From Pedobacter schmidteae (lineage in GTDB: Bacteria > Bacteroidota > Bacteroidia > Sphingobacteriales > Sphingobacteriaceae): a stretch of DNA of 40,021 nucleotides. Below, in pieces: positions 2,984 through 26,612 of the stretch. The translations under genes and the position numbers were made by a program. The stretch covers positions 1-40,021 of the forward strand of contig CAMDKO010000017.1 of assembly GCA_945901155.1 (NCBI GenBank), in the 5' to 3' direction. The notes beneath the pieces were generated by a model, which was given only the letters and a program-made list of their open reading frames with translations, did not search any database and had not been told where the DNA came from. Each line of letters begins with the position of its first letter. The stretch's first letter is position 1.

Positions 2984-3114
2984 CTTGAAATATACATTTG
3001 TTTTTTAATGATTCTACCCTGAGATTGTAATTTTTACTCCTGATATCTTCTTTTTGGGTTTATTCGTTTATTATTTATTTGCTATTTGTGTTGATTGCTA
3101 TTCTATTTAAGGTA

Positions 3115-4125
3115 CTATATTAACAAAAGTGATTTATATTCTGGTAAAATTACATTAAACTTTTCCCTTACCACATCTATTTTATCTTCTGAAAACCCAC
3201 CAGATGCATTTTTATGCCCTCCGCCACTGAAATATTTTTTACAAATTTCATTTGCCGGAAAATCTCCTACCGAACGTAAGGATAATTTTACAACATCCGG
3301 GCGTTCAATGATCAATACTGCCAGGCGAATTCCACTAATTGAAAGTGCATAATTGACAATACCTTCGGTATCTCCTGTTGAGATCTTGAATTGCTCAAGC
3401 TCCTGAGCAGTGATCACAATTATTGCAGTATTATATTCTGTCAAGACCTCCAGTTTATTCAAAAGGCAATTTCCCAGAAAACGAAGTCTGTTTAATGAGA
3501 AATCATCGTATACTAATTGATGGATCAGTGTATTATCAGCTCCGCAATCAATCAGGTTAGCTACAATATGGTGCACATTTGAGGTAGTTGAGCGGAAACG
3601 GAACGATCCAGTATCTGTCATGATTCCGGTATATAAGCAGCTGGCAACATCTTTAGTTAAAAGATGTTTGTCGCCCATAATGTTTACAATGAATTCATAA
3701 ACTAATTGTGCGGTTGCACAGGCACTAGTAGTCCAAAGACGATAATCTTCGAATCCCTCAGGTTCCAAATGATGGTCGATCAAAACTTTTTTTGCCTTAG
3801 ATTCACGGACATAAATACCTAATTCATTAATCCGTACAAGCGCATTAAAATCAAGGCAGAAAATTAAGTCTGCATCGGCAACATATTGTTTTGATTCTTC
3901 CTGCTTCTCAGTGAAAATGATCACCTCAGCATTGTTTGGCATCCACTGTAAAAAACTTGGATAATCGGTAGGGGTAATCACTTGTACCTGATGACCTTTC
4001 TGAACCAAATAAGTATATAAACCCAATGAAGATCCCATTGCATCACCATCCGGTTTGGGATGAGTGGTGATTACAATGCGCTTAGGTTCAATTAAAAACT
4101 CTTTTAAATGGGTTATTTCAAACAT
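3115..4125 (-). CDS. DHH/DHHA1 phosphoesterase, NrnA-type oligoribonuclease/pAp phosphatase
   Basis: 336 residues, the usual size of the NrnA family, which degrades nano-RNAs and dephosphorylates 3'-phosphoadenosine 5'-phosphate. The N-terminal DHH domain shows THPKPDGDAMGSS (residues 21-33, metal-binding H22, D26, D28), FCLDF near 89-93, and the namesake D117-H118-H119. GIMTDTGSFRF supplies a further metal-binding Asp. The C-terminal DHHA1 domain ends with GGGHKNASGG, the substrate-phosphate loop. The stop lies about 130 bp upstream of the FKBP gene's start on the same strand. On the other side it is divergent from ndk, with CAAATCTA (4144-4151) as a candidate minus-strand -7 box (TAGATTTG). 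Confidence 0.92.
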   Translation of the reverse strand: MFEITHLKEFLIEPKRIVITTHPKPDGDAMGSSLGLYTYLVQKGHQVQVITPTDYPSFLQWMPNNAEVIIFTEKQEESKQYVADADLIFCLDFNALVRINELGIYVRESKAKKVLIDHHLEPEGFEDYRLWTTSACATAQLVYEFIVNIMGDKHLLTKDVASCLYTGIMTDTGSFRFRSTTSNVHHIVANLIDCGADNTLIHQLVYDDFSLNRLRFLGNCLLNKLEVLTEYNTAIIVITAQELEQFKISTGDTEGIVNYALSISGIRLAVLIIERPDVVKLSLRSVGDFPANEICKKYFSGGGHKNASGGFSEDKIDVVREKFNVILPEYKSLLLI

Positions 4126-10164: not shown

Positions 10165-12615
10165 TTAAAACTCAACAATAAATCCGATGGTAGGTGTAAA
10201 CTGGGCTTCATCATTTTTTAATAAAGTTGGTATTGCATTACTACCATCTGCTTTAATCAATGAACCATCAGTTGTAGCAAATGCATTATTGTCTGCAGTT
10301 CTTTTAAACGTGTATGTTGGTACTGCAACGCTTTTTGCAGCATACCAATTGTTTACATCTAAAAACAAATCAATGGTGGTTTTCTTGAAATTCCATTTCT
10401 TGTCTATACGAATATCACTGCCATTATAGCCACCTAATCGAAGTGTGTTCAATTTTGTGAAATCAAATATTCCTTGTCCTTGAGATAAATAATTTATTCT
10501 TGATTCCGATTCATTATATGGTGTGTAAGGGGCCCCGCCCTGGTAACGGAATTTTAAACCCAATTCCCAATTGCGTTTGAATTTATAGCCAAGAGTAACA
10601 CTCAATAATTGTTCATTATCCCAACTGCTGGGTATCAATACATTGTTTGCTCCGCTGTATTTACTTCTGTAAAAGGTGTAGGATAATAGACCAAAAAATT
10701 GGTCTGTTAGTTTCTTCTGTGCAAATACTTCAAAGCCATAAGTATTACCTTTCCCATTTGTAATTACAGCTTCGTTACCCAATACATTAAAATCACTACC
10801 AAGATTGGCTAATGAAATCCCATTGCGTACAGAAACAGGGACATTATTGTATTTTTTATAAAAGCCTTCTAAGGTGAACCGAAGTCCATCATTCGGTAAA
10901 TACTCAATTCCTGTTACATAATGGTCGCTCTTTAGGTACTTGCTGTTTTTATTCAACAGATTATTATTATTATCTGCAAAACCTAAAATAGTGTAAGGTG
11001 CTATTTTATAATAGCTACCTATTGAGGCATTTGCCGTCCATTCGTTTGCCAATACATAGCTCAATGAAATTCGTGGCGAAAGTGTTTTCAAGGGATTATT
11101 TCCGTCGGTCGTAAAGCTGTTCATATCGGCACGCAAACCTCCACTTACGCCTAATCGGTTATCAAATAGGCGCTTTCCTACTTGTAAAAATGCGCCATAT
11201 TTTAAAAAATTATTCAACGGGCTTTGGAAATTGATGGAAACATTAGGTTGTATTATTGCCCCCTTGCTGTCTTTAATCTCTTTTCTTAAAACTGTATAGG
11301 TATTGTTGTCGTATTCTGCTAATTGCAACATTCCACCGTAGGCAATCTTCCAGCCATTATAAGTTTTGTTTACATCGACGCGTAGTTTATTTTCAGCTTC
11401 GGTTGAGTTTACAGATAATATTCGTTGAGACGGTAATTGTAGTTTGTTATCCTCATATTGTTTAATATCATTATTAAACCAATTCCGGCTTACAGCTACG
11501 TTGAGAAAACCATTATTGAGTAACCTCTTTAAAGTGAATCCTGAAGTATAAGTATTTTGAAATATAAATGGATTAGAATTTATTATGTACAATTTTTCAG
11601 GACTTGCGCTCTTTATTTCTGCAAATTCAAATTCATCAATCGCTCCAATGCCAATAAACGAGAGGGTCGTTTTTTTATCAATTTGATGTGTAATTTTTGT
11701 TTGAAAATCCCAATAATTAGGACGTATTGGTAAATCAATTAGAGAGAAAAGTAATTGTAAATACGAACGCCTTGCCGAAGCCAAGAATGTTGTTTTTTTG
11801 TTTTTAGAAAGTGGTCCTTCAAAAGTTGTAGCTAATTCGCTGGCACTTAGCCTTATGTTTCCTTGAAAATTATTTGGATTTCCATTTTTTTGCTTGAACT
11901 GAAATACCGAACTCAATGCATTATCATATCTGGCATCAAAAGCACTTGAATTTAATTTTACATCTTCAATAAATGATACATTTAATATTCCCTGCGGACC
12001 ACCTGAACTTCCCTGAGTTTGAAAATGATTAATTACAGGAACTTCAATTCCATCTAAATAAAAAACATTTTCACTGGGGCCACCGCCTCGAATAATTATA
12101 TCATTTCTATAACCACCACCGCCAACTCCGCCACCCACACCGGGCAAAGACTGAATTACTTTGCTAATATCAAAGTTGCCCCCTGGATTGGCTTTTATCT
12201 CTTCAGTTGTTAATCGCTGCACACTTAAAGGTGTTTCTAAAGTTGCAGCTACAACGGTGCGTTTATTTGATTTAAATACCACCTCTGTTAATGCACTCGT
12301 TGTGGGTTCTAATTCTATGGTTACGTAATTTTCGTTTCCTGCATTTATAGCAATATTGTAAAGTGTTTCAGTTTTATACCCAATAGAAGTAAAAATTATA
12401 TTATATGTTCTTAATGTGATACCTGATATCTTGAATATTCCGTTTGTATCAGCCATTGTTGCCTTGTTTGTACCTTCCAAGGCTATATTTACATTAAATA
12501 AAGGTTTTTGGGTTGATTTATCAATTACTTTACCCGCAATGCTGCCATTAGTTTGAGAAAATGCACTTTGCGAGAAAATTATAATGGATAGTGCTAAAAG
12601 AAAAAAAAATTTCAT
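10165..12615 (-). CDS. TonB-dependent outer membrane receptor (no SusD partner)
   Basis: 816 residues from the ATG at 12615, which opens a clean signal peptide (MKFFFLLALSIIIFSQSAFSQ). Order: carboxypeptidase-regulatory-like beta-sandwich (about 22-105, GSIAGKVIDKSTQKPL, SIGYKTE), plug domain (about 130-230, IRGGGPSENVFYLDGIEVPVI), then a beta-barrel ending in F (TPTIGFIVEF), as outer membrane barrels do. The glycine-rich VGGGVGGGGYRND at the plug is typical of a Bacteroidota receptor subgroup. No SusD, siderophore or metal gene is adjacent, so the cargo is unknown. It stands alone between lipA and uvrA with its own promoter, which overlaps a repeated operator-like motif. Confidence 0.9.
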   Translation of the reverse strand: MKFFFLLALSIIIFSQSAFSQTNGSIAGKVIDKSTQKPLFNVNIALEGTNKATMADTNGIFKISGITLRTYNIIFTSIGYKTETLYNIAINAGNENYVTIELEPTTSALTEVVFKSNKRTVVAATLETPLSVQRLTTEEIKANPGGNFDISKVIQSLPGVGGGVGGGGYRNDIIIRGGGPSENVFYLDGIEVPVINHFQTQGSSGGPQGILNVSFIEDVKLNSSAFDARYDNALSSVFQFKQKNGNPNNFQGNIRLSASELATTFEGPLSKNKKTTFLASARRSYLQLLFSLIDLPIRPNYWDFQTKITHQIDKKTTLSFIGIGAIDEFEFAEIKSASPEKLYIINSNPFIFQNTYTSGFTLKRLLNNGFLNVAVSRNWFNNDIKQYEDNKLQLPSQRILSVNSTEAENKLRVDVNKTYNGWKIAYGGMLQLAEYDNNTYTVLRKEIKDSKGAIIQPNVSINFQSPLNNFLKYGAFLQVGKRLFDNRLGVSGGLRADMNSFTTDGNNPLKTLSPRISLSYVLANEWTANASIGSYYKIAPYTILGFADNNNNLLNKNSKYLKSDHYVTGIEYLPNDGLRFTLEGFYKKYNNVPVSVRNGISLANLGSDFNVLGNEAVITNGKGNTYGFEVFAQKKLTDQFFGLLSYTFYRSKYSGANNVLIPSSWDNEQLLSVTLGYKFKRNWELGLKFRYQGGAPYTPYNESESRINYLSQGQGIFDFTKLNTLRLGGYNGSDIRIDKKWNFKKTTIDLFLDVNNWYAAKSVAVPTYTFKRTADNNAFATTDGSLIKADGSNAIPTLLKNDEAQFTPTIGFIVEF

Positions 12616-21840: not shown

Positions 21841-21867
21841 TGCTGGCGCATGCGTGCCGCGTGTGCC
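21841..21867 (+). repeat. REP-like element, copy a
   Basis: Divergent copy: GCTGG followed by a 9-bp stem GCGCATGCG/CGCGTGTGC with two G-T pairs and loop TGC. It forms an inverted pair with the copy at 21913-21938, about 45 bp away. Confidence 0.7.
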
Positions 21868-21912
21868 AAACAAGAAAAAGTATACTTAAATCTAGTAGTT
21901 AGATTGAATATA

Positions 21913-21938
21913 GCAAGCGCGGCACGCGCGTGCTAGCT
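21913..21938 (-). repeat. REP-like element, copy b (inverted)
   Basis: On the minus strand: AGCTA, then the stem GCACGCGCG/CGCGCTTGC with loop TGC. Compared with other copies one A-T pair is replaced by G-C, which keeps the stem; one C-T mismatch occurs. Confidence 0.65.
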
Positions 21939-21976
21939 GAGAAAAATTCCTTAAATTAGCTCCATATACATTTACA

Positions 21977-23011
21977 GTGGCAAAACCTATACTCGTACTA
22001 AAATTTGGAACTGCATCAATCACCACCACAGATGGTGAGCTTGATGAGTTAGTGATTGAAGAAATAGCTCGGCAGGTGGCATTGATCCATAAGGAATATG
22101 ACCTGGTGATTGTTTCATCGGGAGCCGTTGCCGCCGGAAAGAAGTTTCTAAAGAATTATGGAGGCACGCTGAATGAGAAGAAAGCTGCTGCATCTGTTGG
22201 AAATCCACTTTTATTAAATACATACGCCAAATATTTTACACCACATGGCATTGCCATTGCGCAAAGTCTGTGTGAACGCCATCATTTTTCGAATCGTGAT
22301 CAGTTCCTGCAGCTTAAGCGAACCTATGAGGAACTTTGGGCAAGTAATATTATCCCGATTGCTAATGAGAATGATGTAGTGAGCAACCTAGAATTGAAAT
22401 TTTCTGATAATGATGAGTTAGCCACACTAATCGCTGTTGGGTTTGGTGCTTCGCAGGTCTTGTTCAGCACTTCGGTTCCTGGTGTTTTGGATGGGCATGG
22501 CAAAGTGATTACGGAGCTCGATACCAGCGATAAAAAAATTCTCTTATTAGCGAATAAGGAAAAATCTGCTTCTGGTTTAGGGGGCATGACCTCTAAATTG
22601 AATTTTGCCCGCTTGGCTAATCAAATGGGAATCCGCGTGGTTATATTCGGTATCCGAACTGATAATGGGATCATTAAAGCATTAGAAGGTTCAACAGGTA
22701 CTTTATGCCTGCCCCAGAAAAGTGATCTTTCAGCACGTAAAAAGTGGCTAGCCAGTGGAAGTCTTGTTCGTGGCCGGATTCAAATTGATGCGGGGGCATG
22801 TAAAGCGTTGAAAGACAGGCATAGTCTGCTTGCTGTTGGAATTAAGAAAGTACTGACCGGTTTTGAGAATGGTGAGATCATTGAGATTCTTGATGAAGAC
22901 AATAATGCGGTAGCGGTTGCTATTGCAAAGATTGATTCAACAACTTTGACCAAGGATACTAAAGTAAAAAACCTGGAAGTGGCGCATGCCGATAATATTG
23001 TTTTACTGTAA
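21977..23011 (+). CDS. proB: Glutamate 5-kinase ProB
   Basis: 344 residues starting at GTG (21977). It phosphorylates L-glutamate in the first step of proline synthesis. Amino acid kinase domain: LVLKFGTASIT (residues 6-16), VIVSSGAVAAG, ENDVVS, FSDNDELATLIA, and SASGLGGMTSKL. The last ~90 residues form a PUA domain (GSLVRGRIQIDAGACKAL to the end), as in long ProB proteins. proA follows after 9 bp. Feedback inhibition by proline is usual for the family. The upstream region carries a REP pair rather than a recognisable promoter. Confidence 0.95.
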   Translation: MAKPILVLKFGTASITTTDGELDELVIEEIARQVALIHKEYDLVIVSSGAVAAGKKFLKNYGGTLNEKKAAASVGNPLLLNTYAKYFTPHGIAIAQSLCERHHFSNRDQFLQLKRTYEELWASNIIPIANENDVVSNLELKFSDNDELATLIAVGFGASQVLFSTSVPGVLDGHGKVITELDTSDKKILLLANKEKSASGLGGMTSKLNFARLANQMGIRVVIFGIRTDNGIIKALEGSTGTLCLPQKSDLSARKKWLASGSLVRGRIQIDAGACKALKDRHSLLAVGIKKVLTGFENGEIIEILDEDNNAVAVAIAKIDSTTLTKDTKVKNLEVAHADNIVLL

Positions 23012-23020
23012 ACTTTGACC

Positions 23021-24268
23021 ATGGAATCGATCCAATCTCTACTTGAACATGCCTCGCAGGCAACCATCGCAGCCAAGCTTTTAAGTGATGATAAAAAAGC
23101 AGATATACTGAGATCTCTGGCAGCAAAGATCAGGGAAAACACGGCTACTATTAGTGCTCAAAATAAATTGGATCTGAACCAAATGTCTGATTCTGATCCT
23201 AAGAAAGACCGTTTATTACTATCTCCAGCTAGGATTGAAGATCTTGCAAAGAGTGTGGAAGATATTGCTGCATTGCCTGATCCAAGTAATCGTTTGCTTT
23301 CTGAGCGGATTATGGATAATGGACTTCTTGTTCAGAAAATAACGGTCCCGCTGGGCGTAGTAGGCGTAATTTATGAATCGAGGCCCAACGTGACCATTGA
23401 TGTTGCCGCTTTATGCATTCAATCGGGTAATGTTTGTGTTTTGAGAGGTGGCACCGATGCTTTTTATACCAATACATTTTTGGTTAAATTGATTCAAGAG
23501 GTTCTGGCAAGTTTTAATCTAGATGTGAATATTGTTCAGTTGCTGCCTACCGACAGAAAATTCATGCCCGAACTGCTCACGGCCACTAAATATGTAGATA
23601 TTTTAATTCCTCGTGGCTCACAGCAATTGATTGATTATGTACGCGAGCATGCTTCAGTACCTGTAATTGAGACTGGGGCTGGCGTTTGCCATACGTATGT
23701 GGAAACTTCTGCTGATCTTGAAAGTGCAGCTACAATCGTAACCAATGCCAAGGTATCCCGTCCATCAGTTTGTAATTCACTGGATACGGTCATCGCAGAT
23801 AGAGAAATTTTAGCACCCTTGCTGAGTCTTTTGGCTCCCAAACTGCAGGCCTATCAGGTAGAGATCTTTGCTGATCCGGAGTCATACACTATTTTGAAGC
23901 AGCTGAATTATCCATTTCTAAAAGAAGCGGTAGAAGTAGACTTTGGTCGCGAATTTCTTGATTTTAAATGTTCTGTAAAAACGGTTGCCGGATTTGATGA
24001 GGCAGCAAAACATATCCATAAATTCTCTTCTAAACATTCGGAAGCAATCATTTCCAAAAATATGGAGTACTGTGAACGCTTTCTGAATGAGGTAGATGCC
24101 GCGGCAGTTTTTACTAATGCTTCAACACGATTTACGGATGGCGGAGTATTTGGACTTGGAGCTGAGATTGGAATCTCTACCCAAAAATTGCATGCCCGTG
24201 GTCCTTTTGCACTTGAAAAACTGGTGACTGAAAAATGGATCATACGTGGCCAAGGTCAGGTTAGATAA
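23021..24268 (+). CDS. proA: Glutamate-5-semialdehyde dehydrogenase ProA
   Basis: 415 residues from the ATG at 23021 (a TTG two codons earlier is the alternative). It reduces glutamyl-5-phosphate with NADPH. Motifs: GVIYESRPNVTIDVA (residues 115-129), VLRGGTDA (140-147), IETGAGVCHTYV (216-227), and the catalytic Cys251 in RPSVCNSLDTV. The C-terminal GGVFGLGAEIGISTQKLHARGP is the family's signature end. It forms an operon with proB; proC is not in the window. Two REP elements follow the stop codon. Confidence 0.95.
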   Translation: MESIQSLLEHASQATIAAKLLSDDKKADILRSLAAKIRENTATISAQNKLDLNQMSDSDPKKDRLLLSPARIEDLAKSVEDIAALPDPSNRLLSERIMDNGLLVQKITVPLGVVGVIYESRPNVTIDVAALCIQSGNVCVLRGGTDAFYTNTFLVKLIQEVLASFNLDVNIVQLLPTDRKFMPELLTATKYVDILIPRGSQQLIDYVREHASVPVIETGAGVCHTYVETSADLESAATIVTNAKVSRPSVCNSLDTVIADREILAPLLSLLAPKLQAYQVEIFADPESYTILKQLNYPFLKEAVEVDFGREFLDFKCSVKTVAGFDEAAKHIHKFSSKHSEAIISKNMEYCERFLNEVDAAAVFTNASTRFTDGGVFGLGAEIGISTQKLHARGPFALEKLVTEKWIIRGQGQVR

Positions 24269-24273
24269 GATAC

Positions 24274-24299
24274 GCTAGCGCACGCGTGTCGCGTGTGCT
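24274..24299 (+). repeat. REP-like element, copy c
   Basis: GCTA followed by a 9-bp stem GCGCACGCG/CGCGTGTGC (one G-T pair) with loop TGT, then T. It is identical over 26 bp to the copy at 25879-25904 and to the reverse complement of 26587-26612. It lies 6 bp after the proA stop. Confidence 0.85.
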
Positions 24300-24320
24300 T
24301 TATTAATTAAATAATACCTT

Positions 24321-24348
24321 GCTAGCGTACACGCGGTACGCGTGTGCT
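24321..24348 (+). repeat. REP-like element, copy d
   Basis: Same orientation as copy c and 47 bp further on. The left arm differs (GTACACGCG) and the loop is GTA, but a 9-bp stem is kept with the wobble pair moved by one position, which points to selection on the hairpin. Confidence 0.75.
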
Positions 24349-24362
24349 CATAAAAAACCAAT

Positions 24363-25859
24363 TTGAATAATCTGCTCATTTCCTTTAAGGATGTAAGTAT
24401 CCGACATTTCAATACCCTCGTTTTTGAGGATTTGAATTTCAGTCTTGAAAAAGGTCAGCACTGGGCTTTGATTGGAAAAAGCGGCTCCGGAAAAAGTACT
24501 TTTCTTGATTTTATCATGGGTAAAGCGTCCATGGCTAGAGGTGAGGCATACTATCCTTATTTTGATCAACATATTCAGGAGCATCATCAGGATGACCCCT
24601 TGTTTAACAGGTATAAACTGATTACTCAGGTGTCTGCAAGGCATGAATTTCGAAATCTTTCCAATACCGCCGACTTCTATTATCAGCAGCGTTTTAATTC
24701 ATGCGATTCTGAAGATGCGGATACTGTAGCCACATATCTTTCGAGTATAAGGGTTGTAAATCCTTTGGGCCTATGGACCACTCAAAAGTCTACAGAACGT
24801 TTGAGATTAACGCATTTACTTGATAAAGAGCTTATCAAATTATCCAATGGTGAAACCAAAAGGTTAATGCTTGCCGCAGCATTGATCAAAAATCCATTAT
24901 TACTCTTGCTCGATAACCCTCTGAATGGACTAGATGTATCTGCGCGTCAAGATTTTAATGAACTAATTCGTGAAATATCTGAATCAGGGATCAGCATCAT
25001 CATGGCCACTCCATCAACAGAAATTCCAGATTCGATTACCCATGTGGCGGTATTGGAAAATGGCAAAATGATTGCCCAATGCACTAAAAAAGAGTTTAAA
25101 CCGATTAGCTTTCATACAATGACCCAAAAACAATTGGATCAGGAAGAATTGAAGCAACTGCTTTCAGCTACTCCTTCTGTTGTTTATGATGCCATTATTG
25201 GAATGGAAAATGTTTCGATCAAATACGGTGAGAAGCAGATTCTTGATGGGCTGAATTGGCAGGTGAGACAAGGCGAGAGATGGGCATTAACAGGGCATAA
25301 CGGAGCTGGTAAATCTACTTTACTAAGTCTGATAAACGGGGATAACCCACAAGCTTTTGCCAATAAGATTATCCTCTTTGACCAGCAAAAAGGTAGCGGA
25401 GAGAGTATTTGGGATATAAAAAAGAAAATCGGCTATGTCTCGCCTGAATTTTTTCAGTATTTCCCAATGGGGAGTACTTGTTTGCAGGTTATAGAATCCG
25501 GGTTTGATGATACACTGGGTTTGTTCCGTGTATCAGGTAAATCAAGGGCTGAAACCTCATTAAGCTGGATGAAATTGCTGCATATCAGTGAATTTGAAGG
25601 CGCATTGATCCGGAATGTTCCGGTTAGTATTCAGCGTATCTGTATGCTGGCCAGAGCCATGGTTAAGAATCCATCCCTATTAATACTAGATGAACCCTGC
25701 CTTGGGCTTGATGTTGAGCAGCAAGAACAATTTAAAAACCTGATTGATACGATCTGCAGAATGTCTGACTTGACCCTAATTTATGTTAGTCATTATCAGG
25801 AGGAAATGCCTCTGAGTATCACACATTCGTTGAAATTGGATCAGGGAAGGGTGGTTTGA
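24363..25859 (+). CDS. ModF-like cytoplasmic protein with two ABC ATPase domains
   Basis: 498 residues, close in length and layout to ModF (PhrA): two ABC domains and no membrane part. TTG at 24363 is the apparent start. Domain 1: Walker A GKSGSGKST (38-46), signature LSNGE (160-164), Walker B LLLLDNP with Asn185 where Glu is expected, and no His in the H-loop (MATPSTEIP, about 214-222). Domain 2: Walker A GHNGAGKST (311-319), ModF-type GSGESIWDIKKKIGYVS (344-360), no recognisable signature (NVPVSIQR at 418-425), Walker B ILDEP (441-445), H-loop His477. ModF's own function is unclear; no molybdate transport genes are nearby. Confidence 0.85.
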   Translation: MNNLLISFKDVSIRHFNTLVFEDLNFSLEKGQHWALIGKSGSGKSTFLDFIMGKASMARGEAYYPYFDQHIQEHHQDDPLFNRYKLITQVSARHEFRNLSNTADFYYQQRFNSCDSEDADTVATYLSSIRVVNPLGLWTTQKSTERLRLTHLLDKELIKLSNGETKRLMLAAALIKNPLLLLLDNPLNGLDVSARQDFNELIREISESGISIIMATPSTEIPDSITHVAVLENGKMIAQCTKKEFKPISFHTMTQKQLDQEELKQLLSATPSVVYDAIIGMENVSIKYGEKQILDGLNWQVRQGERWALTGHNGAGKSTLLSLINGDNPQAFANKIILFDQQKGSGESIWDIKKKIGYVSPEFFQYFPMGSTCLQVIESGFDDTLGLFRVSGKSRAETSLSWMKLLHISEFEGALIRNVPVSIQRICMLARAMVKNPSLLILDEPCLGLDVEQQEQFKNLIDTICRMSDLTLIYVSHYQEEMPLSITHSLKLDQGRVV

Positions 25860-25878
25860 TGTATTAATATAGAAATAT

Positions 25879-25904
25879 GCTAGCGCACGCGTGTCGCGTG
25901 TGCT
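25879..25904 (+). repeat. REP-like element, copy e
   Basis: Identical to copy c. It lies 19 bp after the ABC protein stop and about 90 bp ahead of the RAYT start, on the RAYT-coding strand; the copies beyond the RAYT are inverted. Confidence 0.85.
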
Positions 25905-25995
25905 TCAATAATTATTAATACCGTTCCCTAATTTATACCGTCCGTTTTCTACTTACAATAACTCTTCAATCGAGATTGAATTAACTTCATTTCTT

Positions 25996-26539
25996 ATGAG
26001 TAGAAAGTACAAATTTCTGAATAATGAAGGTTTATATTTTGTGAGTTTTGCAACTGTTAATTGGGTCGATGTATTTATTAGGCCTGTTTACTGCGACCTA
26101 ATTGTTGAGAGTCTTATTTACTGCAAGCAAAAACTGGGCTTAGAGTTATATTGTTGGTGTATCATGACCAGTCATCTTCATTTAATCATCAGAGCGAAAA
26201 ACAATGATCCAGCAACGCTATTAGGCAGATTTAAGGAATATACATCTAAAAAATTTAGTGAAGTCAATATATGAAAATTCGCAGGAGTCACGTAAAGAAT
26301 GGATGCTTGATATGTTTAGAAAAGAAGGGAAAAAAAGAAGTAATGTGACAACAAATCAATTTTGGCAGCATGATAACAGGCCAATAGAATTGTGGAGTCA
26401 AGATGTACTTGAACAAAAGGTGGATTATACACATAATAATCCAGTGATGGCCGGACTTGTATTAGAGCCTTGGCATTGGAAGTATTCGAGTGCAATAGAT
26501 TATTCGGGTGGAAAGGGTTTAATAGATTTGGATTTATGA
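25996..26539 (+). pseudogene. REP-associated tyrosine transposase (RAYT), frameshifted
   Basis: Two overlapping frames together match one RAYT (IS200-like Y1 transposase domain). The first part (from ATG 25996) has YFVSFATVNWVDVF, the HUH motif in MTSHLHLII (His60, His62) and RFKEYTSKK with Tyr82 as likely nucleophile, then soon stops at TGA (26272-26274). The second part (from about 26258, +1 frame) continues with NSQESRKEWMLDMFRKEG, NQFWQHDNRPIELWS, DYTHNNPVMAGLV and HWKYSSA, ending at TGA 26537-26539. Removing one base between TTT and GTG near 26256-26258 would restore about 180 residues. REP hairpins lie on both sides, as expected for a RAYT. It may be inactive, or the base may be an assembly error. 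Confidence 0.88.
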
Positions 26540-26540
26540 G

Positions 26541-26566
26541 AGCACACGCGACACGCGTGCGCCAGC
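26541..26566 (-). repeat. REP-like element, copy f (inverted)
   Basis: Minus-strand GCTGG followed by the same hairpin as copies c and e; it differs from them only by G for A in the GCTAG head. Confidence 0.82.
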
Positions 26567-26586
26567 AATAGATTTGGATTTATGAG

Positions 26587-26612
26587 AGCACACGCGACAC
26601 GCGTGCGCTAGC
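26587..26612 (-). repeat. REP-like element, copy g (inverted)
   Basis: Exact reverse complement of copies c and e. With copy e it brackets the RAYT gene in inverted orientation. Confidence 0.85.

Follow-up and report, generated by a model that had tools for sequence, protein, structure and literature searches.

Insertion sequences (IS) of the IS200/IS605 superfamily combine a Y1 transposase of the HuH fold with subterminal hairpins and a single-strand mechanism. The transposases of repetitive extragenic palindromic (REP) elements, termed TnpAREP or REP-associated tyrosine transposases (RAYTs), act on one folded strand and make use of its foot, of irregularities in the stem or of bases in the loop; group 2 enzymes rely on a bulge and a strict GTAG foot, and group 3 enzymes on the loop bases of a perfect palindrome (PMC8266576). 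These REP/RAYT partnerships have been best worked out in Proteobacteria, and the Bacteroidota branch is in print as 'atypical', with no consensus in the accessible text (PMC6006769). Here we describe a family of hairpins with a GCT foot, seven of which surround or neighbor a RAYT gene in a 40,021-nucleotide stretch of Pedobacter schmidteae (assembly GCA_945901155.1, contig CAMDKO010000017.1; hereafter, the window). The hairpins are likely REP elements, non-autonomous mobile DNA that depends for its movement on a RAYT of group 5 / subclass 2.6.

According to the text of PMC6006769, the RAYTs of group 5 / subclass 2.6 are mostly from Bacteroidetes and are flanked by hairpins without GT[AG]G, further copies of which occur at other places in the genome; their structures are termed atypical, with weaker secondary structure, and the region that reads GTAG is not conserved. 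The YIH[QN]NP and WQ motifs of that subclass resemble those of the window RAYT. However, relative to the main-text account, the GCT-foot clade has a strong stem, a foot of GCT and a fixed wobble. Like the GTAG/GTRG REPs and their paired forms, the REPINs (PMC3733652, PMC8266576), the hairpins carry a short foot 5' of the stem, form inverted pairs, lie between genes, flank the RAYT and are strand-specific, but the foot reads GCT(R), not GT[AG]G, and a single fixed wobble stands in place of the group 2 bulge or the group 3 loop bases. The CGTC-tagged REPs, the only repeats for which the text of PMC3733652 names Bacteroidetes, are also palindromes with a fixed tetranucleotide, yet they differ in their foot, in their loops of 4-5 bases and in lying away from transposase genes. 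With IS200/IS605 the GCT system shares the Y1 HuH fold, as indicated by a fold search with a modeled relative (L160); it departs from these elements in its flanks of inverted hairpins of one kind, in a gene present in few copies and in its dispersed non-coding pairs. REP/RAYT partnerships as such are already known; the GCT foot and the fixed wobble look new. No account of either was found in searches of an open-licence library, and the words "wobble" and "GCT" are absent from the accessible text of PMC6006769, whose supplementary table may list such sequences.

Consensus, spread and cognate transposase

Copies in the host genome, a 2.74 Mb draft of 191 contigs in which the window is contig C17, follow a 26-nt consensus of GCT, a purine, GCGCACGCG, TGT or TGC, CGCGTGTGC and a pyrimidine. 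The original prediction had read this as a GCTRG head followed by a 9-bp stem and a 3-nt loop. The loop stands, and the stem is counted here as 10 bp because the purine of GCTRG pairs as A-T or G-C in most own-genome copies. The family does have a head of its own, distinct from GT[AG]G, but GCTRG was dropped for a head of GCT followed by a purine that pairs in only part of the elements: in the set of 83 distinct elements described below, position 4 is a purine in 75 and is paired in 51.

A covariance model (R1), built from 16 own-genome copies whose scores are consequently not independent, detected 36 copies in the host genome at E ≤ 1 and 33 at E ≤ 0.01, and the exact pattern, which is independent of R1, matched 14 times compared with none for the reversed control pattern. 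Model E-values are rough, and at most 150 candidates were scored per genome, so high copy counts are lower bounds. Among the 30 own copies with loci, 27 touch no open reading frame (ORF) of at least 120 aa, two overlap one partly and one lies inside, in loci of which ORFs cover 72% (p ~2e-15 for at most one copy inside). The hairpins are thus short, multicopy and intergenic, as REPs are, and neither of two outcomes named beforehand as telling against a REP family, confinement to a single locus and free occurrence inside genes, was encountered.

The transposase is a RAYT by its HuH and tyrosine motifs and by its score against the REP_Tyr_transpos profile (NF047646), whose cut-off of 80 is exceeded by intact relatives (L160, 95.8 bits; L159, 82.4 bits). 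Both by sequence (E 9.3e-7) and in a fold search with the L160 model (predicted local distance difference test, pLDDT, 81.6; top match, E 2.0e-5), the closest solved structure is 4er8, TnpAREP with a REP hairpin. Motif likeness to Table 1 of PMC6006769 would place the enzyme in group 5 / subclass 2.6: it has a tyrosine motif of the YIH[QN]NP type and W-Q, it occurs in Bacteroidetes, and its hairpins lack a GTRG foot. Alignments place a conserved segment of this clade, N-x-P-I-E-L-W-S, after W-Q. The window gene lies between inverted copies, as predicted, but is split into two overlapping frames; its C-terminal piece is 71% and 70% identical to the intact RAYTs of genomes G007 (182 aa; placed in the host's genus) and G031 (181 aa), respectively. 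The gene is broken as assembled, and this could be an assembly error.

The RAYTs of G007 and G031 again sit between an upstream plus-strand and a downstream minus-strand copy. Genome contigs were scanned with five RAYTs, and the best 80 of 484 confirmed relatives became 80 named loci. The flanks were usable at 78 of these; L186 and L206, where one side had just 13-14 bases, were set aside. The flank scan covered 400 bp on each side and accepted any trinucleotide foot with ten pairs, at least eight of them Watson-Crick; Watson-Crick pairing was required at pair 5, and high pairing elsewhere is therefore partly built in. GCT ranked first of the 64 possible feet, with 112 elements in the expected orientation vs. 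26 in the opposite one; CGC came next with 26 elements, and GTRG, the canonical foot, was absent from the leading feet. At least one correctly oriented GCT element lay within 400 bp of the RAYT in 61 of the 78 loci, and the tree rows with GCT elements include Flavobacteriales, Sphingobacteriales, Cytophagales and one member of the Bacteroidales. A REP-like Bacteroidota family with a RAYT partner, as suggested from the window alone, is therefore borne out by the wider genome and RAYT-locus data.

RAYT-side elements have a C-rich tract 4-5 bases beyond the foot (58% C at -5 and -4 vs. 17% background, 109 elements), possibly as part of the cutting site. It is not visible by eye in the printed own-genome copies, and is a trait of the copies that flank RAYTs; 3' of the hairpin, the flank composition check gave no strong cleavage-dinucleotide motif.

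Fixed wobble, covariation and stem class

The flank scan yielded 83 distinct elements, a few of which (e.g., at L230) look like chance matches. Their fourth stem pair, formed by positions 7 and 23 of the 26-mer, is G-T in 75, T-G in six and Watson-Crick in two, and is never A-C or C-A, in a scan that treated all non-Watson-Crick pairs alike and so had neither the place nor the kind of the wobble built in. Among 29 full-length copies in the host genome, the same pair is G-T in 23, A-T in three and T-T in three. Since it is G-T or T-G in 81 of 83 elements and never A-C, the foot-bearing strand is the strand that folds, as expected for single-strand recognition by a RAYT. Folding with DNA parameters agreed, with the foot strand more stable in 79 of 83 elements (mean -8.4 vs. 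-6.7 kcal/mol), and the loop starts with T in at least 76 of 83.

Pairing is also maintained through changes of sequence. Across 69 distinct 26-mers, 94.5% of cells pair, nine of the ten pairs show two-sided changes, and the covariation score is 0.657, compared with 0.192 for shuffled sequences and at most 0.136 for slid partners. Selection on the folded form, originally argued from one diverged window copy (minus strand, foot at 21937), is strongly supported by this wider alignment, but the argument from that copy is weak: one of its pairs is mismatched, and A-T replaces the G-T found in most copies.

The stem also diverges together with the enzyme. Stem class was defined as the dinucleotide at stem pairs 9-10 and placed on a tree of 72 RAYTs, 56 of them labelled, that left out six loci with in-frame stops (L174, L175, L188, L198, L230, L233). 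It requires 11 changes on this tree, where the minimum is six, the shuffled mean 29.2, and none of 200 shuffles was as low. Within one RAYT clade, the stem class of the window is shared by several Cytophagales and by Sphingobacteriaceae, while other members of the latter family (Pelobium, Pseudopedobacter) group with their RAYTs in a GA class. The hairpins thus flank the RAYT and covary with it, as REPs do; this shows an association between stem class and RAYT without implying its cause, as kinship alone clusters labels. Switches between G-T and T-G number five on the RAYT tree, with five T-G rows among the 56.

These features tip the balance slightly towards a third mode of recognition in this Bacteroidota RAYT clade, in which a GCT foot and a G-T wobble at the fourth pair would mark the foldable strand, kept through rewriting of the stem and several T-G flips, and in which W-Q-x-x-N-x-P-I-E-L-W-S would replace the GTAG-reading region and read the new foot. 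That the N-x-P-I-E-L-W-S segment is what reads GCT is our guess. With its defined foot, its fixed wobble and a stem type that can be predicted from the RAYT tree, the family provides a test set for how single-strand transposases choose strand and hairpin, and the hairpin model can be used for annotating GCT-foot repeats in Bacteroidota genomes.

Proposed mobility of the hairpins and competing explanations

The RAYT unit is present or absent as a block. The interval between the ATP-binding cassette (ABC) gene and the major facilitator superfamily (MFS) gene is ~750 bp in the host and holds three hairpins in addition to the RAYT; the corresponding site carries neither a RAYT nor an R1 match in G002 (171 bp, with flanks 93% identical to the host), G017 (31 bp), G009 (126 bp) and G007 (99 bp). 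Similarity to these empty sites restarts exactly at the outer foot edge of the minus-strand copy at 26612, and G008 has two weak hairpin copies at the site. This pattern would fit gain or loss alike.

In the genus, another repeat, an imperfect palindrome of ~110-150 bp starting near TTACGAATTTACCTAGGCGTCATGC, occupies the host's RAYT site. Repeats of this type were seen in L272, L274, L275 and L276 (three tandem-like copies) and beside the copy at L014.

The observed association, orientation, covariation, strand asymmetry, dispersal and block-wise presence or absence can be accommodated in a single-strand mechanism analogous to that of described RAYTs. The foot-bearing strand would become single, for example as lagging-strand template, and fold; the RAYT would bind the hairpin and recognize foot, wobble and loop; and its tyrosine would cut near the foot, after which the element would be pasted elsewhere. 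The fixed G-T would act as a mark telling the foldable strand from its complement because the latter has an A-C mismatch there. Given the broken RAYT frame as assembled, the host copies may now be fossils, like the hairpins of RAYT-less relatives.

Several observations weigh against this explanation. R1 matches 22 of 100 relatives (10 of 20 in the genus, 10 of 41 other family members and, weakly, 2 of 39 outside the family), and a RAYT query matches 15 of these 22 genomes vs. 29 of the 78 R1-negative ones (Fisher p 0.014), a modest association in which some of the 15 are weak and belong to another RAYT subgroup (G009, G010). One outcome that the original prediction had named as refuting, equal abundance of the element in genomes without a RAYT, was thus partly encountered: seven of the 22 element-bearing genomes (G002, G008, G016, G017, G025, G038, G053) have no RAYT by query or profile, and they include the richest, G025, with at least 95 copies, as well as G002 with 31. 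A PF01797 search gave no Y1 match in six of the seven and three in G008; completeness is 82% for G016, 87% for G017 and 99-100% for G025 and G002. Conversely, R1 finds only 2-17 copies in 11 named genomes with an R1-type RAYT (Pontibacter anaerobius, 2), and in several genomes the copies may amount to hardly more than the ends of the RAYT itself; with R2, a model broader than R1, the RAYT-bearing Marivirga arenosa has none. The close pairs of G025 have their feet inward in 11 of 11 cases, opposite to other genomes. No GCT element was found in the 400-bp flanks of 17 of the 78 RAYT loci, and the GCT rule fails at 18 more divergent loci, which gave six GCT elements in the right and five in the wrong orientation, with AAA at 10; a GCT foot for all subclass-2.6 RAYTs was therefore rejected. 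We read the element-rich genomes without a RAYT as probable cases of RAYT loss with surviving repeats, for which E. coli strains provide a precedent in print (PMC3733652); a host role or another enzyme would be a less likely reason for their persistence. Such genomes make host benefit vs. slow decay testable.

An autonomous unit would be one alternative, with the RAYT and its two inverted hairpins forming an element of the IS200/IS605 superfamily, or a 'TIRtron' flanked by terminal inverted repeats (TIRs), and the scattered hairpins its remnants. The block-wise presence or absence of the RAYT unit, the C-rich tract directly outside the feet of RAYT-flanking copies and the named genomes with few copies beyond the RAYT flanks would all be consistent with it. 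However, the host has 33-36 copies for one RAYT of matching kind, and most copies have no transposase gene alongside, where the mobile unit of an IS200/IS605 element always carries one. Under R2, Botryobacter ruber has at least 96 copies, compared with 17 in the host, 21 and 24 in two Pontibacter, 15 in a Paludibacter metagenome-assembled genome (MAG) and 0-13 in six further RAYT-bearing genomes; four Daejeonella genomes have none with R2 or R1. Most Botryobacter copies form pairs that point their feet outward and enclose no transposase gene; among the 86 matches listed, this orientation is seen in 29 of 32 close pairs, compared with five of seven in the host. We consider an autonomous element unlikely.

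Feet-outward pairs would fit a REPIN-like dispersed unit of two REPs, but a conserved dimer was not favored, as the spacers of 20 Botryobacter dimers are mostly unlike (mean identity 0.47 vs. 0.44 when shuffled, with 9 of 190 comparisons reaching at least 0.7). In several Botryobacter hairpin pairs (L288, L289, L291, L292, L295, L298), one side shares the outer flank GCACCCGTTT, which two reversed pairs seem to carry on the other; this flank may represent a favored target site or a larger repeat. In the host, ~350 bp around an inverted hairpin pair are present twice (G000:C16 ~3085-3440 and C35 ~12011-12360; L030, L031); compared in steps of 50 bases, the two are mostly 80-100% alike, and the DNA beyond them is unrelated.

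The hairpins could instead act mainly as RNA, as 3' hairpins that stabilize or end transcripts and are kept by the host, with the RAYT accounting only for their origin. A G-U pair in the sense RNA, with A-C on the antisense side, would account just as well for the strand asymmetry, many copies persist in genomes without a RAYT, and in a hand tally of the 18 own copies within 100 bp of an ORF end, 12 lie 3' with the foot strand sense, three are opposite and three are at a 5' end. This explanation is nonetheless improbable. The flanks of the RAYT are symmetric, with upstream copies 5' of the gene and downstream copies antisense, the layout of a mobile element; the GCT foot is constant yet lies outside the stem, where an RNA hairpin would not need it; and the two proA-side copies, absent in G004, G010 and G011, have decayed in G002 despite flanks that are 93-96% identical. 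Intrinsic terminators were rejected, as the bases after the 3' arm show no strong run of T (at most 43% in the first positions vs. 30% background).

Movement by some other enzyme, with the RAYT a passenger, would suit G025 and G002, which have no Y1 transposase by PF01797 or the RAYT profile, and the opposite pair geometry of G025, but it is highly doubtful, given that stem type follows the RAYT tree, that inverted flanks recur in 61 of 78 RAYT loci and that E. coli strains are reported to have lost a RAYT while keeping their REPs (PMC3733652).

Window features and further repeats

All seven window copies were found within one base of where they had been predicted, and none lies within a protein gene of the window (Table 1). 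Those starting at 24274 and 25879 match the outermost minus-strand copy exactly over 26 nt, as had been noticed. Their concentration in 5 kb is real (seven of 36 copies, p ~5e-13 under even scatter, a crude value as two of the seven form one tandem duplication), but it represents a dense spot of a family spread genome-wide. The neighboring genes are, in order, one that we take from its sequence to be sugar transporter-like, proB, proA, an ABC ATPase gene, the RAYT gene and an MFS transporter gene.

Table 1. GCT-foot hairpins and RAYT pieces in the window, with positions counted from its first base.
Feature	Position	Strand	Score and remarks
GCT-foot hairpin, left member of feet-outward inverted pair	21842-21867	+	43.2 bits (R1); pair kept in sister species G002
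GCT-foot hairpin, right member of that pair, degraded stem	21912-21937	-	39.7 bits
GCT-foot hairpin, 5 bases 3' of proA stop	24274-24299	+	48.2 bits; shortened in G002
Longer variant hairpin, direct orientation relative to 24274 copy	24321-24348	+	21.7 bits
GCT-foot hairpin upstream of RAYT gene	25879-25904	+	48.2 bits; place and orientation recur in related RAYT loci
RAYT N-terminal piece, SHLH motif, frame broken after	25996-26274	+	NF047646 REP_Tyr_transpos 51.8 bits; PF01797 23.8 bits
RAYT C-terminal piece, FWQ, NRPIELWS and YTHNNP motifs	26258-26539	+	NF047646 33.7 bits
46-bp tandem duplication (RAYT gene end and hairpin)	26521-26612		copies 26521-26566 and 26567-26612, 98% identical
GCT-foot hairpin downstream of RAYT gene	26541-26566	-	45.9 bits
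GCT-foot hairpin, outer end of RAYT unit	26587-26612	-	48.2 bits; foot edge is where empty-site similarity resumes

More divergent RAYTs of the same broad kind, at L094, L095, L101, L077, L079 and L090, have inverted flanking hairpins of another make, starting for example with CTGTCCGTAGAG or GCTGCCGCGAG, and further foot types probably exist. A second Y1 transposase, of the IS200 type, is encoded at L001 (G000:C20:5594-8947; gene 1489-1941, 58.4 bits to NF033573). Its tyrosine motif, YIKKQEIHH, is like that of subclass 1.2, for which the accessible text of PMC6006769 lists no REP. On both sides of this gene lie small palindromes such as GGGCTTCAGCCC, GGTGCTTCAGCGCC and GGGCTGAAGCCC.

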